Positions 40,505 through 46,216 of a DNA stretch of 64,000 nt are shown piece after piece. The stretch covers positions 124,001-188,000 of the forward strand of contig NZ_JAPZSK010000004.1 in NCBI RefSeq assembly GCF_027531815.1, written 5' to 3'. A program made the translations under genes and the position numbers. Source of the DNA: Gemmatimonas sp. (GTDB lineage Bacteria; Gemmatimonadota; Gemmatimonadetes; Gemmatimonadales; Gemmatimonadaceae). Under the pieces are notes generated by a model. The model was not told the origin of the DNA and searched no databases. It saw only the letters and a list, made by a program, of their open reading frames with translations. How positions within the stretch are numbered: the first letter of the stretch is position 1; each line of letters opens with the position of its first letter.

Positions 40505-41254
40505 TCAGGCGTCGCGGAGCGGCTTGAGCTCCACGCGCAGCTTGCTCAGCGCCTTGCTGCGTATCTGCGAGACGCGGCTTTCGGTGAGCTCGAGCACCTT
40601 GGCGATCTCGTGCAGCTTGAGCTCCTCGAAGTAGTAGAGCGAGAGGACGATCCGCTCCTGCTCCTTGAGCCGGAGGATCGCATCCTTGAGATGGGCGACC
40701 TCCTGCTCGTGCGTGAGCGACGCCTCGACGTCGCTGTCTTGCTCACTGGTCAGTGTTTCCGCCGGAACGGGCGCCGTGCTTTCCCGATCGCCTGGGGCCC
40801 GGTCGAGCGGCATGTGATGGGCGCCTTCGACGTCCGCCTGCCAACGCCAGAGCGTGTCGAGGTCCACGCCCAGCTGCGCGGCCAGTTCGCGATCCTCCGG
40901 CGCGCGGCCATGCGCTCGCCGAAAGGCCTCCCGTGCGCCGGTGATTTCGCGGGTCTTGCGCCGGACAGAGCGCGGCACGTGATCCTGCTTGCGCAGCTCG
41001 TCGAGAATCGCGCCGCGAATGCGGGGTGCCGCGAAGGTGCTGAAGGCGAGGCCACGGGTGGCATCGAAGCCTTCGAGGGCCGTCATGAGGCCGATCGTCC
41101 CGGCGCTCACGAGTTCATCGAAGTCGGTACGCGCGGCGAGCGTCCGTGAGACCTGCCGGGCCACGTGATGCACGAGACCGAGGTGCTCTTCGAGCAAACG
41201 GTCGCGGGCAACCACATTACCCGCCCGATAGGACTGCCAGAGGTTTGCGTTCAT
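40505..41254 (-). CDS. fliA: Flagellar sigma factor FliA (sigma-28)
   Basis: 249 aa from the ATG at 41252-41254, which gives the usual start ...MNANLWQSYR. A TTG at 41293 overlapping the flhG stop and a GTG at 41287 are alternatives. Region 2 has HLGLVHHVARQVSRTLAARTDFDELVSAGTIGLMTALEGFDATRG, then FSTFAAPRIRGAILDELRKQDHVPRSVR. Region 4 has LKEQERIVLSLYYFEELKLHEIAKVLELTESRVSQIRSKAL. It would direct late flagellar genes, none of which lie in the window. Confidence 0.95.
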   Translation of the reverse strand: MNANLWQSYRAGNVVARDRLLEEHLGLVHHVARQVSRTLAARTDFDELVSAGTIGLMTALEGFDATRGLAFSTFAAPRIRGAILDELRKQDHVPRSVRRKTREITGAREAFRRAHGRAPEDRELAAQLGVDLDTLWRWQADVEGAHHMPLDRAPGDRESTAPVPAETLTSEQDSDVEASLTHEQEVAHLKDAILRLKEQERIVLSLYYFEELKLHEIAKVLELTESRVSQIRSKALSKLRVELKPLRDA

Positions 41255-41289
41255 GGCTGTGGAACCGGAGGGGGCAGCGAGAGACACGA

Positions 41290-42165
41290 TCAAGTACCGG
41301 GGCGGGAGAGGGGTCGTTCGGCCAGCACGCGCATCACGACGTGGTGCGCGGCGATGGCGGCCGGCGATCCGGCGGCTGCGTCAGGAAAGGGCATGCCCGC
41401 GCGCAGCGCGGCATCAAGGGTGGGGTCGGCCGGAATGGCCCCAGCGAGGCGTGGCGTGAAGCCGAGGAACTGCCGGGCCCCCGCCTCGATGGCGTCAAAG
41501 CAGCGAGCCGCTTCACTCCCTTCATGCCGGTTGACGAGCACCTCGACCGGCAGGGCCGGGCGGGCAAGCCCGACGGCTTTGCAGAGGGCATAGGTCGCCG
41601 CGAGGCCCACGGGATCACTGCCGGCGGAGACGGCCAAGAGCCGCTCACTGCCAGCGGGTGTAACGGCGCCGAGCACATGGTCAAGGCGGGCACCGCAGTC
41701 GAGGACCACGAGGTCCATCGTTTCGGCAAGCGTGCTCACCCGGCGCATGCAGGCCTTGCGTTCGGCCGCGCTCATTGGCGCCGCGCTGCGCGGGGCATCG
41801 GCGAGCCGCGGGGGGCCGCCGGCCACCAGGGTGAGTGTTGCACTGACCGGCGTGGCAACATCCGCCGGCACGGCGCGCCCGGCACGCAGGTCGGTCCAGC
41901 TGCCGCGCGGGGTGACCCCGAGTGTCAGCGCCAGCGCGCCCACGAAGTCATCGGTGTCCACCAGCAGCACGCGCCGACCCTCGCCGGCGGCACTCACGGC
42001 CAGCAGCGCCGACAGCAGCGTGGCCCCGGCGCCGCCGCGCCCGCTCGCAACCAGCAGCGTGGGTGCCGCCCCGTTGCGGGCGTCGCCGGCGCTGCGCGTG
42101 CTGCGGATGCCATCGGCTTGCGTCGGTGGTGCCGCTCCGCGCGGCACGGTCAGGAGCAGCGACAT
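41290..42165 (-). CDS. flhG: FlhG/YlxH-type MinD-like protein, degenerate Walker A
   Basis: 291 aa from the ATG sharing a base with the flhF stop (TGATG). N-terminal TQADGIR resembles the FlhF-activating DQAxxLR motif. The MinD-like fold is clear (RVLLVDTDDFVGALALTLGV, LVVLDCGARLD, VLVNRHEG). The deviant Walker A is SGRGGAGATLL at residues 41-51, where both lysines of K-G-G-x-G-K-T are lost (R and A). ATP hydrolysis is therefore doubtful. The family controls flagellar number together with FlhF. Confidence 0.85.
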   Translation of the reverse strand: MSLLLTVPRGAAPPTQADGIRSTRSAGDARNGAAPTLLVASGRGGAGATLLSALLAVSAAGEGRRVLLVDTDDFVGALALTLGVTPRGSWTDLRAGRAVPADVATPVSATLTLVAGGPPRLADAPRSAAPMSAAERKACMRRVSTLAETMDLVVLDCGARLDHVLGAVTPAGSERLLAVSAGSDPVGLAATYALCKAVGLARPALPVEVLVNRHEGSEAARCFDAIEAGARQFLGFTPRLAGAIPADPTLDAALRAGMPFPDAAAGSPAAIAAHHVVMRVLAERPLSRPGT

Positions 42166-43022
42166 CAGGCCGGTGCCCAGTCGGATTCGGCGTCGGCCGC
42201 CAGGCCCCACGTGCGCAGCAGCCGCGGCACCCCGGGCTTGAGGTCGGCGGGCACGTCCTGGCCATCGGTGATCCAGCGGGTGGGCATCTCGAGCGACAGC
42301 GCCAAATCGGTGACACCCGATTCCCGCGGCACCTCGTCGAGCTTGGACAGCAGGAGATGCGTGGCGCCGCAGTGGGCGCGCGACGGGGCATAGGCACGGG
42401 CGATGTCCACCGCGAGGTCGGCGCGCAAGCTGGCCGGCAGGATCAGGTGCACCTCGTCGGGGGCGATGGCATCGAGCAAGGTGCGCCATCGCTCCGTGAG
42501 CTCCGTACTTGCTGGGCTGCGCCCCGGCGTGTCGATGAGAATCACGTCACAGTCGGCCGAGAGCCGCTTCATGGTGGTCTCGATCTCGCGCGCATCGTAG
42601 ACGACCTCGAACGGGATGTCGGCGAGCTCGGCGTAGGTGGCCAGCTGCTCCATGCCGCCCACGCGGTAGGTGTCGAGCGTGAGGAGTCCCGGGCGCGCGG
42701 CCCCGAACATGCCGCGGCGCACCGCCAGTTTGGCGGCGGTGGTCGTCTTGCCGGCCCCGGTGGGGCCCACCAGCGCGATGCCATAGGGGCGGCCGTCGGC
42801 CTTGCGCAGCGTGGGCGGCAACGGCGCCGCTTCGAGGCGCGCACGGACGGCATCGAGGGCGTGGCTCGGCGTTGCGAGCACCTCCACCATCGGCACCCCG
42901 CCGTCGCGCACGGTGCGCGTGTGGAGAATCATCACGTCGTCGCCCAGCGTGCGCCGCGCGCGATCGGCCACGCGCGACAGGTCGACGCCGCGGAATCGTT
43001 CGACCGGCAGCAGACTAGCCAT
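42165..43022 (-). CDS. flhF: Flagellar SRP-like GTPase FlhF
   Basis: 285 aa, shorter than the usual ~370-450 because the N-terminal B domain is reduced. The GTPase has G1 ALVGPTGAGKTTTAAKLAV (near residues 90-107), LTLDTYRVGGMEQLATYAELADIPFEVVYD, G3 VILIDTPGRSP and G4 LLLSKLDE. The ATG at 43020-43022 overlaps the flhA end by 8 bp. It sets the site of flagellum assembly. Confidence 0.93.
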   Translation of the reverse strand: MASLLPVERFRGVDLSRVADRARRTLGDDVMILHTRTVRDGGVPMVEVLATPSHALDAVRARLEAAPLPPTLRKADGRPYGIALVGPTGAGKTTTAAKLAVRRGMFGAARPGLLTLDTYRVGGMEQLATYAELADIPFEVVYDAREIETTMKRLSADCDVILIDTPGRSPASTELTERWRTLLDAIAPDEVHLILPASLRADLAVDIARAYAPSRAHCGATHLLLSKLDEVPRESGVTDLALSLEMPTRWITDGQDVPADLKPGVPRLLRTWGLAADAESDWAPA

Positions 43023-45108
43023 TCGGCATCTCCCAGGTGGCAACGCTGCTCAGCGTGATCTGCGCGGGGAGCTCGGCGAGCGAGACGACCGGGAGGCTGG
43101 GCAGCACGGGTTCAATCAGGCGTCGCACCCCCACGCGCAGTGACGGCGGCGTGATGAGCGGCAGCGGACGGCCATCCACCGCGTAGGTGGTGGCGAGGTG
43201 GTTCAGGTCCCGCAGCATTCCTGCGAGGGATTCGGGGGTGAGCATCGGCGTGGTCGCCTGCGCCGTGCGCGGCGAGAAGAGCCCCAGCAGGGCGCTTTCG
43301 AGACGCGCCCCGATGGTGATGCCCCGGATGGTGCCCGTGGGGTCGGCAAAGAGCCGGGCGATCACGTTGGTGAGCGCCTTGCGGACCACTTCCGTCAGCA
43401 CCTCGGGATCCTTCGTCGCCTCCGCGCCGTCGCCGATCGCCTCGAGAATCGTGACGAGGTCGCGAATGGGGACACGCTCGCGCAGCAGGCGCTGGAGCAC
43501 GCGGTGCAGCACGCTCAGGGACACCTTTCCGGGAATGATCTCTTCCACCAGCGCTGGGTGCGACTTCTTGAGCGTCTCCACCATCTCCTGCACCTCCTGG
43601 CGACCCAGGAGCTCGGCGGCGCTCCCCTTCAGTGTCTCGAGCAGGTGGGTGGCGACCACGGTCGTGGGTTCCACGACCACGTAGCCCAGCGCTTCCGCCT
43701 CGGCACGGCGCGAGGCCGCGACCCAGCGTGCCGGCATGCCGAAGCTCGGGTCGATGGTGTCCATCCCGTCGATCTCCGCCACCACCGCACCGGTGTTGAG
43801 GGCCATCATGAAGCGCGGCAGCACTTCCGCGCGGGCAACCTCACTGCCGCGCAGCTTGATCACGTATTCGTTGGCGGGCAGGCGGATGTCGTCGCGGATG
43901 CGGATGGGCGGCACGAGGATGCCCAGTTCGAGCGCCGCCTGCTTGCGCAGCAGCGAGATGCGTTCGAGCAGATCGCCGCCCTGCCCCTCGTCCACGAGCG
44001 GGATGAGGGCATACCCCACCTCGAGTTCGATCGGGTCGATCTGCAGCAGGTCCTGCATCGGATCGGGTGTGGCTGAGACCTCGGGGGCGTCACTCACCGT
44101 GGGCGACAGCATCAGCGCCTCGGCGGTGCGCTGCGCCTCGGCCTGCGTCGACAGCTTTGCCAGCACGGCGGTCCCCGCGGCCATGGCGAGGAAGGGAAAC
44201 ATCGGGAGCGCGGGAATGAGCGAGAAGGCGCCGAGCACGCCCGCCACCATCCACATGGCGCGCGGATGGCCGCCAAGCTGCCGACTGAGCACGGTGCCGA
44301 TCCGGTCGGTGCTCGTCGCCGCCGTGACCATGATGCCGGCCGCGGTGGAGATGATGAGCGCCGGGACCTGGGAGACGAGCCCGTCACCCACCGTGAGGAT
44401 GGTGTACGTGCTCGCCGCCTTGCCCACATCCATGCCGCGCTGGATGACGCCAATGAAGATGCCGCCGACGATGTTCACGATCACGACGAGAATGCCGAGA
44501 ATCGCGTCGCCCTTCACGTACTTCGAGGCACCGTCCATCGCGCCGTAGAAGTCGGCGGTGCGGGAAATCTCGTCGCGGCGGGTGCGGGCCTCCTTCTCGT
44601 CGATCAGGCCGGCGGAGAGGTCGGCGTCAATCGCCATCTGCTTGCCGGGCATGGCATCGAGGGTGAAGCGCGCCGCCACTTCGGCGATGCGGCCGGCACC
44701 CTTGGTGATGACGATGAAGTTGATGCCGATGAGGATGAGGAAGATGACGATCCCAACGGCGTAGTTGCCGCCGATGACGAACTGGCCGAAGGCCTCGATC
44801 ACCTTGCCCGCATGCGCCTGGGTGAGAATGAGGCGGGTGGACGAGACGTTGAGGCCGATGCGGAACAGCGTGAGCAGCAGGAGCAGTGCGGGGAAGCTGC
44901 TGAAGTCGAGCGGGTTCGTGGTGTAGAGGGCGACCAGCAGCACGACCAGCGACGAGCCGATGCTCGCGGCGAGGAAGAGGTCGAGCAGCACCGGCGGTAG
45001 CGGGACGATGATGAGCGCGAGAATCATCACCACCACGAGGGCGACGGCGATCTCGGCGATGCGCATCTTCGGCGCGCCGGGGTTGAGGGGCAGGGCAGCA
45101 GAGGTCAT
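43015..45108 (-). CDS. flhA: Flagellar export gate protein FlhA
   Basis: 697-aa export-gate component with ~8 N-terminal helices (IAVALVVVMILALIIVPLPPVLLD), the FHIPEP motif region LNVSSTRLILTQAHAGKVIEAFGQFVIGGN, GDAILGILVVIVNIVGGIFIGVIQRGM, and a ~340-residue cytoplasmic C-terminus ending ITLSSVATWEMPNG. The ATG at 45106-45108 has GAGGAG upstream; the longer frame is rejected. Confidence 0.97.
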   Translation of the reverse strand: MTSAALPLNPGAPKMRIAEIAVALVVVMILALIIVPLPPVLLDLFLAASIGSSLVVLLVALYTTNPLDFSSFPALLLLLTLFRIGLNVSSTRLILTQAHAGKVIEAFGQFVIGGNYAVGIVIFLILIGINFIVITKGAGRIAEVAARFTLDAMPGKQMAIDADLSAGLIDEKEARTRRDEISRTADFYGAMDGASKYVKGDAILGILVVIVNIVGGIFIGVIQRGMDVGKAASTYTILTVGDGLVSQVPALIISTAAGIMVTAATSTDRIGTVLSRQLGGHPRAMWMVAGVLGAFSLIPALPMFPFLAMAAGTAVLAKLSTQAEAQRTAEALMLSPTVSDAPEVSATPDPMQDLLQIDPIELEVGYALIPLVDEGQGGDLLERISLLRKQAALELGILVPPIRIRDDIRLPANEYVIKLRGSEVARAEVLPRFMMALNTGAVVAEIDGMDTIDPSFGMPARWVAASRRAEAEALGYVVVEPTTVVATHLLETLKGSAAELLGRQEVQEMVETLKKSHPALVEEIIPGKVSLSVLHRVLQRLLRERVPIRDLVTILEAIGDGAEATKDPEVLTEVVRKALTNVIARLFADPTGTIRGITIGARLESALLGLFSPRTAQATTPMLTPESLAGMLRDLNHLATTYAVDGRPLPLITPPSLRVGVRRLIEPVLPSLPVVSLAELPAQITLSSVATWEMPNG

Positions 45109-45118
45109 GCAGGTCTCC

Positions 45119-46216
45119 TCAGGCGGCGGCCGTACCGCGCCAGCCGGCGCCATGGCGCTGCTTCTCACGCATTACGAAGGCCAGCACCTCCGCGATGGCC
45201 AGATACATCTCCACCGGAATCATGGTGCCGACCTTCGCGATCTTGATGAGGGCCCGGGCGAGCGGCTTGTTTTCGATCACGGGCACGCCATGCTGAAAGG
45301 CCAGCTCCTTGATCCGCTGCGCGATCTTGCGTTCGCCCAGCGCGACGATGTACGGTGCCGGCGCCACCGCGGGGTCGTACTTGATGGCAATCGCGATGTG
45401 CGTAGGGTTCACCAGCACCACGTCGGCGGTCTTCACGCTCGCGAACATCGTGCGCCGCACGCGCTCGCGCGCGACCTGGCGGCGACGCCCCTTCATTTCG
45501 GCGTTGCCTTCCTGCGACTTCATTTCCTCCTTGACTTCCTGCTTCGTCATCTTGAGGTCCTCGTTCGTCTTCCAGCGCTGGAAGCCGTAATCGGCGAGCG
45601 CAAGAACGAGGAACATGAAGCCGGCATTGCGGAGCAACGCGAAGCTGTAGGCGTTCACGAGCTCCATGAGCGCCATCGGGGACGGGGACACGGCGAGGGC
45701 CAGGACGTCGGGCCACGCGTCCTGCAGCGTGGCGTACACGGCATAGCTCACGATGACCATCTTGAGCATCCCCTTCGCCAGCTCCACCCATCCCTGCAGG
45801 CCGAGCATGCGCTTGACGCCGCTGATCGGGTTGAGACGCTCGAACTTGGGCTCGAGGGTCTTCGTGGTGAGGAGGCCACCGGTCTGCAGGGCCTGCACGG
45901 CGATGGCGATCACGGCGAGTGAGGCCATGGCCGACACGATGCTCACGATGACGCGGAAGCTGAGCGCCTGGAGGTAGGTGATGAGGCCGACCCCCTCGTG
46001 TGCGCCGTCCCCCGCTGTGGCGAGCGTCCCGCCGACGGTCTCCACGAGAAAGCGCCACAGCGGTGGTCCCGCAAAGGAAAAGACCACGAGGGAGCCAAGG
46101 AGGAAGGCGGCCGTGACGAACTCGGGGCTCTTGGCGATTTGCCCCTTCTCCCGCGCGTCATCGAGGCGTTTGCCAGTGGGTTCTTCGGTCTTTTCGCCGG
46201 ACTCGTTCTCTGCCAT
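45119..46216 (-). CDS. flhB: Flagellar export apparatus protein FlhB
   Basis: 365-aa substrate-specificity switch. N-terminus ESGEKTEEPTGKRLDDAREKGQIAKSPE is canonical. Four helices follow, and the autocleavage motif is NPTH at residues 270-273 in VVLVNPTHIAIAIKYDP. C-terminal ERKIAQRIKELAFQHGVPVIENKPLARAL is conserved. FliK normally triggers its switch. Confidence 0.97.
   Translation of the reverse strand: MAENESGEKTEEPTGKRLDDAREKGQIAKSPEFVTAAFLLGSLVVFSFAGPPLWRFLVETVGGTLATAGDGAHEGVGLITYLQALSFRVIVSIVSAMASLAVIAIAVQALQTGGLLTTKTLEPKFERLNPISGVKRMLGLQGWVELAKGMLKMVIVSYAVYATLQDAWPDVLALAVSPSPMALMELVNAYSFALLRNAGFMFLVLALADYGFQRWKTNEDLKMTKQEVKEEMKSQEGNAEMKGRRRQVARERVRRTMFASVKTADVVLVNPTHIAIAIKYDPAVAPAPYIVALGERKIAQRIKELAFQHGVPVIENKPLARALIKIAKVGTMIPVEMYLAIAEVLAFVMREKQRHGAGWRGTAAA

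Follow-up and report, generated by a model that had tools for sequence, protein, structure and literature searches.

A flagellar FlhG without Walker A lysines in Gemmatimonas, and lysine-less FlhGs across Gemmatimonadota and Planctomycetia

In a species of Gemmatimonas, both lysines of the Walker A motif of the flagellar protein FlhG have been replaced, while the glutamine of the N-terminal helix through which FlhG activates its partner GTPase, FlhF, is still present. The gene lies in a 64,000-nucleotide stretch of contig NZ_JAPZSK010000004.1 (hereafter the window, meaning the whole of that stretch), and its product belongs to a large clade of Gemmatimonadota FlhGs that have lost the P-loop lysine. 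By the evidence of a joint tree, the corresponding loss in Planctomycetia is independent. We lean, with some reserve, towards the reading that the window FlhG regulates FlhF and has given up cycling ATP. In reviews, FlhG figures as an ATPase that cycles with nucleotide and in which all functionally important residues of MinD are conserved (PMC7226244, PMC12826062), and the glutamine of its N-terminal helix is the co-catalytic residue for GTP hydrolysis by FlhF (PMC12826062). Our literature search found no paper on lysine-less FlhG, nor on FlhG in Gemmatimonadetes or Planctomycetes.

The gene occupies the customary position of flhG, directly after flhF and ahead of fliA, in a flagellar cluster whose genes run end to end on the minus strand in the order flhA-flhF-flhG-fliA. 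The ATG of flhG overlaps the stop codon of flhF. The segment 42013-42165, read on the minus strand from 42165 to 42013, codes exactly for FlhG residues 1-51 (MSLLLTVPRGAAPPTQADGIRSTRSAGDARNGAAPTLLVASGRGGAGATLL). The window also encodes a FliM with an N-terminal SQNDIDRLL motif. The genes of the locus and the diagnostic sites of FlhG are as follows.

40505..41293, minus strand: fliA-like sigma factor (Sigma70_r2/r3/r4), overlapping flhG at its downstream side
41290..42165, minus strand: flhG, a degenerate FlhG/FleN orthologue of 291 aa (open reading frame, PDB sequence matches, AlphaFold2 model)
42165..43022, minus strand: flhF, SRP-type GTPase with intact G1-G4 motifs and a short N-terminal part (N domain apparently missing)
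43015..45168, minus strand: flhA, the upstream neighbour (PF00771, E 1e-252)
42103..42123, minus strand: TQADGIR, FlhG residues 15-21, residual FlhF-activating (enhancer) helix with Gln16, aligned with DQAxxLR of the sister family and of other phyla
42013..42045, minus strand: SGRGGAGATLL, Walker A, residues 41-51, with the signature lysine changed to Arg43 and the P-loop lysine to Ala48
41950..41958, minus strand: D70-T-D72, Walker A' and catalytic Asp positions, kept (D72 corresponds to Vibrio D60 by spacing)
41686..41700, minus strand: D156-CGA-R160, Walker B Asp kept, switch II Gly changed to Arg
41596..41598, minus strand: A190, at the position of V. alginolyticus FlhG D171 and E. coli MinD D152

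Sequence, phylogeny, fold, gene position and N-terminal motif concur that the window gene is a true FlhG orthologue. Its best sequence matches in the PDB are FleN (5j1j, E 8e-16) and FlhG (4rz2, E 3e-11). An AlphaFold2 model built from an alignment of 67 relatives (pLDDT 90, pTM 0.86) likewise finds its closest structural matches in FleN (5j1j, Z 29.2) and FlhG (4rz3, Z 29.0), with MinD lower at 24.7. In a tree computed without the Walker A columns, the protein falls together with the sister family's canonical FlhGs. Pointing the other way, its best NCBIfam match is the CpaE-like TIGR03815, and a TadZ has been reported with a lysine-poor Walker A (PMC10482377), which could suggest a CpaE/TadZ-type protein inserted into the operon. 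The match, however, reaches 44 bits against a cut-off of 154, and FleN and FlhG lead the PDB matches by both sequence and fold; the grouping with canonical sister-family FlhGs, the retained N-terminal motif and the place between flhF and fliA further render this replacement very improbable. We accordingly rejected it as unsupported by profile score, PDB matches and the tree, the last of which was built without CpaE/TadZ references. A second FlhG that might rescue the first was also sought, and a survey of the genome with the FlhG query returned one FlhG-like gene and a weak match in an 859-aa frame. The MinD/ParA-family paralogues read from the genome (ParA, a second ParA, Mrp, BchX and BchL) keep their lysines. 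The BchX and BchL genes (L004 and L006, on contig C6) score over the NCBIfam cut-offs, so that bacteriochlorophyll synthesis genes are present. A FleQ-type master activator was not found in the window's genome, which is weak evidence of its absence given that the Pfam model used also matches in E. coli and Caulobacter.

An earlier note on this DNA had read the Walker A motif as having both lysines replaced, and the open reading frame bears this out: where the MinD-type consensus is KGGxGK[ST], the window FlhG has R43-GGAG-A48-T49. The protein shares with FlhG/FleN/YlxH its place in flhA-flhF-flhG-fliA, the fold, the N-terminal FlhF-activating motif, Walker B and the glycine loop. It differs in the loss of the P-loop lysine, the change of the signature lysine to arginine, the alanine at the D171 position (a register checked by spacing, the Asp of this column lying 140 residues from the signature lysine, as D171 does from K31), the arginine in place of the switch II glycine, and the lack of a C-terminal membrane helix: beyond its final predicted helix the chain continues for just 9 residues, and these contain no amphipathic segment.

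To place these changes in the phylum, the window FlhG was searched in 298 genomes of Gemmatimonadota and the matching loci were read. The P-loop lysine is absent from all examined FlhGs of a 47-row clade. Against 29 canonical FlhGs, all of which have lysine in this column, none of 44 members of the lysine-less clade does (T in 36, A in 7, S in 1). The signature position, in contrast, is K or R in 43 of the 44, so the signature lysine has been conservatively replaced and the P-loop lysine alone is truly lost. The closest relative, 93% identical, has the window's own RGGAGAT, and the other examined members of the genus have RGGSG[T/S/A][T/S]. In the rest of the family, Gemmatimonadaceae, KGGxGTS prevails, whereas in f4 and f5 the motif opens with KGG or RGG and goes on as xG[T/A]S. 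KGGVGKS is retained in the sister family, f2, alone, where a recognizable DQAxxLR-type motif is present in most members. The comparison across the phylum that the earlier note proposed thus has a divided outcome, the clade having lost the P-loop lysine and the sister family having kept it. The case that would have undone the observation, a sequencing error exposed by relatives with both lysines, did not materialize. Given the identical motif in the 93% identical relative, the same type of motif in all other examined members of the genus, the intact frames and the dN/dS values given below, both sequencing error and pseudogene are rejected as vanishingly improbable.

The lysine-less FlhGs form one clade with support of 100/100, whose stem measures 0.73 changes per site (again without the Walker A columns), and the FlhF tree contains the same split, although the side comprising f1, f4, f5 and f7 is less well supported there (84/68). 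The simplest reading of these trees is that the P-loop lysine was lost once, in the clade's ancestor. In both the FlhF and the FlhG trees f2 falls outside f1, f4 and f5, and since f2 and f1 belong taxonomically to one order, the flagellar genes disagree with species taxonomy; horizontal transfer of the flagellar locus is a possible explanation of the placement of f2.

The loss is accompanied by further changes, as judged from the same 44 lysine-less and 29 canonical sequences. The D171 position (the Asp of TDAYxxxK) holds aspartate in 29/29 canonical FlhGs and in 0/44 of the lysine-less clade, though the joint change of P-loop lysine and D171 position rests on only three independent pairs. The switch II residue is glycine in all 29 canonical proteins and arginine in 33 of the 44. 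A C-terminal amphipathic segment, looked for in the tail after the last domain helix, occurs in 14/16 of the FlhGs from other phyla, in 0/9 from f2 and in 2/20 from the lysine-less clade; since it is missing from the lysine-bearing f2 as well, the absence of the membrane helix probably predates the loss of the lysine. The remainder of the pocket has been maintained. GG, G, [S/T], D70, D156 and K196 vary little or not at all in the lysine-less clade, the adenine-side Asn N212 is found in 40/44, and twelve pocket positions taken as a set greatly exceed randomly drawn sets of domain positions in conservation, even with the inclusion of the unconserved positions 246 and 248, which were placed off by one or two residues. 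Constraint has been newly gained in the clade at P245, L67, R142, E135, R/K137, R136, R141 and R213. Within the genus, dN/dS of FlhG is 0.05-0.13 for the listed close pairs, and its median is 0.20, compared with 0.13 for FlhF. FlhG is under purifying selection, with ratios of 0.05-0.20, and is a working protein.

The N-terminal TQADGIR, which the earlier note had likened to the FlhF-stimulating DQAxxLR helix, stands up to comparison. Its glutamine is present in 14 of 14 aligned members of the genus and the DQAxxLR of the sister family lies at the same place, which marks the motif as positionally homologous and no chance match. The AlphaFold2 model predicts a helix over residues 16-28; the Asp of the motif is Thr in the window FlhG and S or T throughout the genus, where the Arg is not invariant either. 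The FlhF proteins of the genus keep G1 to G4. Among lysine-less Gemmatimonadota FlhGs, the glutamine occurs in 35/46 of those with FlhF versus 0/7 of those without (Fisher p 2e-4), a test in which the species are not independent, phylogeny is uncorrected and the glutamine was called by eye from the loci read. Eleven lysine-less FlhGs have lost the glutamine with FlhF still present, and FlhF activation therefore cannot be the sole retained function.

The two partners have met varied fates elsewhere in the phylum. In the window FlhF (42165-43022) the GTPase domain starts at residue 83, and residues 76-168 match positions 194-286 of the TIGR03499 profile; to judge by such alignments, the N domain appears to be missing from the FlhF of the phylum's main class. 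The FlhF of class f11 is long. In family f11 (L073-L078) this long canonical FlhF has no FlhG gene nearby in 6/6, and in the loci read (L073, L076) it is followed by a protein of ~115 aa with a hydrophobic N-terminus and a sigma factor. Genus g18 (L079, L080) has the order flhA-flhF-fliA without flhG, its FlhF being intact and FlhG apparently lost. A profile search of FlhG-lacking genomes gave only low-score ParA/Mrp-like matches among those read. Conversely, genus g20 (L085-L087) has lost FlhF and kept an FlhG without the activating glutamine, and genus g4 (L088, L089, L092) lacks FlhF and has an FlhG remnant of 190 aa without the Walker A' region. In genus g8, FlhG lacks even the glycine loop and the motifs of FlhF are degenerate too.

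Outside the phylum, an FlhF-based scan of named genomes yielded 80 loci from many phyla, with FlhG beside FlhF in 75. KGGxGK[ST] is present in 74 of these 75 FlhGs, and the exception, an Isosphaeraceae bacterium (L103), led the search to Planctomycetia. All 22 FlhGs read from the family Isosphaeraceae combine KGGVGTS with DQAxxLR, and other Planctomycetia FlhGs have KGGVGTT, KGGVGAT, KGGLGVT or KGGVGRS. DQAxxLR is kept in 33/33 lysine-less planctomycete FlhGs. Six FlhGs of Planctomycetia (L233-L238), each encoded directly downstream of flhF, have lost both Walker A lysines (GGSxxVGTT) and carry an invariant RDQATLLRM. In a joint tree of Gemmatimonadota and Planctomycetia from which the Walker A columns were left out, the supported branches require the lysine state to have changed three times, and loss of the P-loop lysine is consequently recurrent. 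The planctomycete proteins resemble those of Gemmatimonadota in the change of the P-loop Lys to Thr (or Ala, Val) with the activating motif kept. They differ in their separate origin on the tree and in that many retain the Asp of the D171 position and the C-terminal amphipathic segment, the latter being found in 17/32.

Two groups of proteins offer points of comparison in the literature. In Vibrio, FlhG is inactivated by mutation of the ATP-binding residues of Walker A, including K31A (PMC7226244); K31 is the signature lysine by spacing. D60A abolishes ATPase activity, allows ATP binding and leaves the protein nearly functional, D171A of V. alginolyticus activates the ATPase sevenfold and increases polar localization, and FlhG binds C-ring proteins independently of nucleotide (PMC7226244). 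The K31 and D171 positions altered in the laboratory in V. alginolyticus vary naturally here, and D60A separates hydrolysis from function there; however, K31A abolishes function and D171A hyperactivates, whereas the window FlhG has both positions and the P-loop lysine changed and the D60 position kept. TadZ of Eubacterium rectale, another localization protein of the MinD/ParA family, has naturally lost both Walker A lysines and is reported to hydrolyse ATP through another lysine (PMC10482377, citing Xu et al. 2012). This atypical ATPase belongs to a Tad pilus system and has no FlhF-type partner.

How might an FlhG without its P-loop lysine work? In the reading towards which we lean, the window FlhG would have abandoned the MinD-type cycle of ATP binding, membrane dimerization, hydrolysis and release, so that hydrolysis and cycling would be gone. 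The job kept would be to present the N-terminal helix to the FlhF GTPase, Gln16 still stimulating hydrolysis of GTP, and the protein would probably contact the C-ring proteins FliM/FliN meanwhile; it would thus act as a standing activator of FlhF and a C-ring contact. The observed pattern is that expected if FlhF activation needs no FlhG ATPase cycle, a proposition that is partly supported. Against an abandoned cycle count the high constraint on the non-lysine residues of the pocket, which is odd without a bound nucleotide, and, by analogy, both the inactivity of Vibrio Walker A mutants and the reported activity of TadZ; against activation as the whole story count the eleven glutamine-less FlhGs that accompany FlhF and the loosened Asp and Arg of the genus motif. 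Because the signature position holds an arginine, the glycine loop and Walker B persist and activity has been reported for TadZ, residual nucleotide binding is possible, and a nucleotide may sit statically in the lysine-less pocket. The ATP-independent FlhF regulator envisaged by the earlier note is therefore favoured in part, by the clade-wide loss, the purifying selection and the convergent loss with the helix kept, while the constrained pocket and the TadZ precedent leave room for some use of nucleotide. Only tentatively, we would extend the reading to both phyla: on two occasions or more, once in Gemmatimonadota and once in Planctomycetia at the least, FlhG may have become a constitutive pseudo-ATPase, a standing GTPase-activating protein for FlhF whose pocket persists for structural reasons or to hold a static nucleotide.

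The main rival is that ATP is still bound and hydrolysed, another basic residue having taken the role of the P-loop lysine. Candidates are R160 of switch II, the arginines of helix 133-149 (R136, R/K137, R141, R142) and the signature Arg43. Conservation in the clade is highest at positions that include R43, the glycine loop, T49, D70, D156 and N212, several arginines have come under constraint there, the canonical glycine has become R160 in 33/44, and TadZ provides a reported precedent (PMC10482377). The new arginines, however, are not universal, those of the helix are partly present already in the lysine-bearing sister family, and with both membrane helix and D171 position gone as well, the cycle could not take its customary course, and we regard compensation as unlikely, if by no means negligible. 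A slow decay, in which the FlhF/FlhG switch is coming apart across the phylum, the lysine was lost at an early step and little function is left, would accommodate the genera without FlhG (L079, L080) or FlhF (L085-L087), the 190-aa remnants without FlhF and the degenerate motifs of both proteins in g8. It is nevertheless improbable, as selection on the genus FlhG is close to that on FlhF, the motifs of FlhF are intact, and the same Lys to Thr change occurred independently in Planctomycetia with DQAxxLR kept.

What began as an observation on one protein now concerns a variant that recurs in two phyla, and because a second phylum underwent this loss on its own, the flagellar switch seems to have been genuinely reworked. 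Natural FlhGs that lack the P-loop lysine, some of them lacking either lysine, and that have kept the helix make it possible to ask which function of FlhG needs ATP; they are, in effect, ready-made separation-of-function proteins. Moreover, the graded series within Gemmatimonadota, from canonical through lysine-less and motif-less FlhGs to the loss of either partner, can be used to study how a flagellar switch is rewired.
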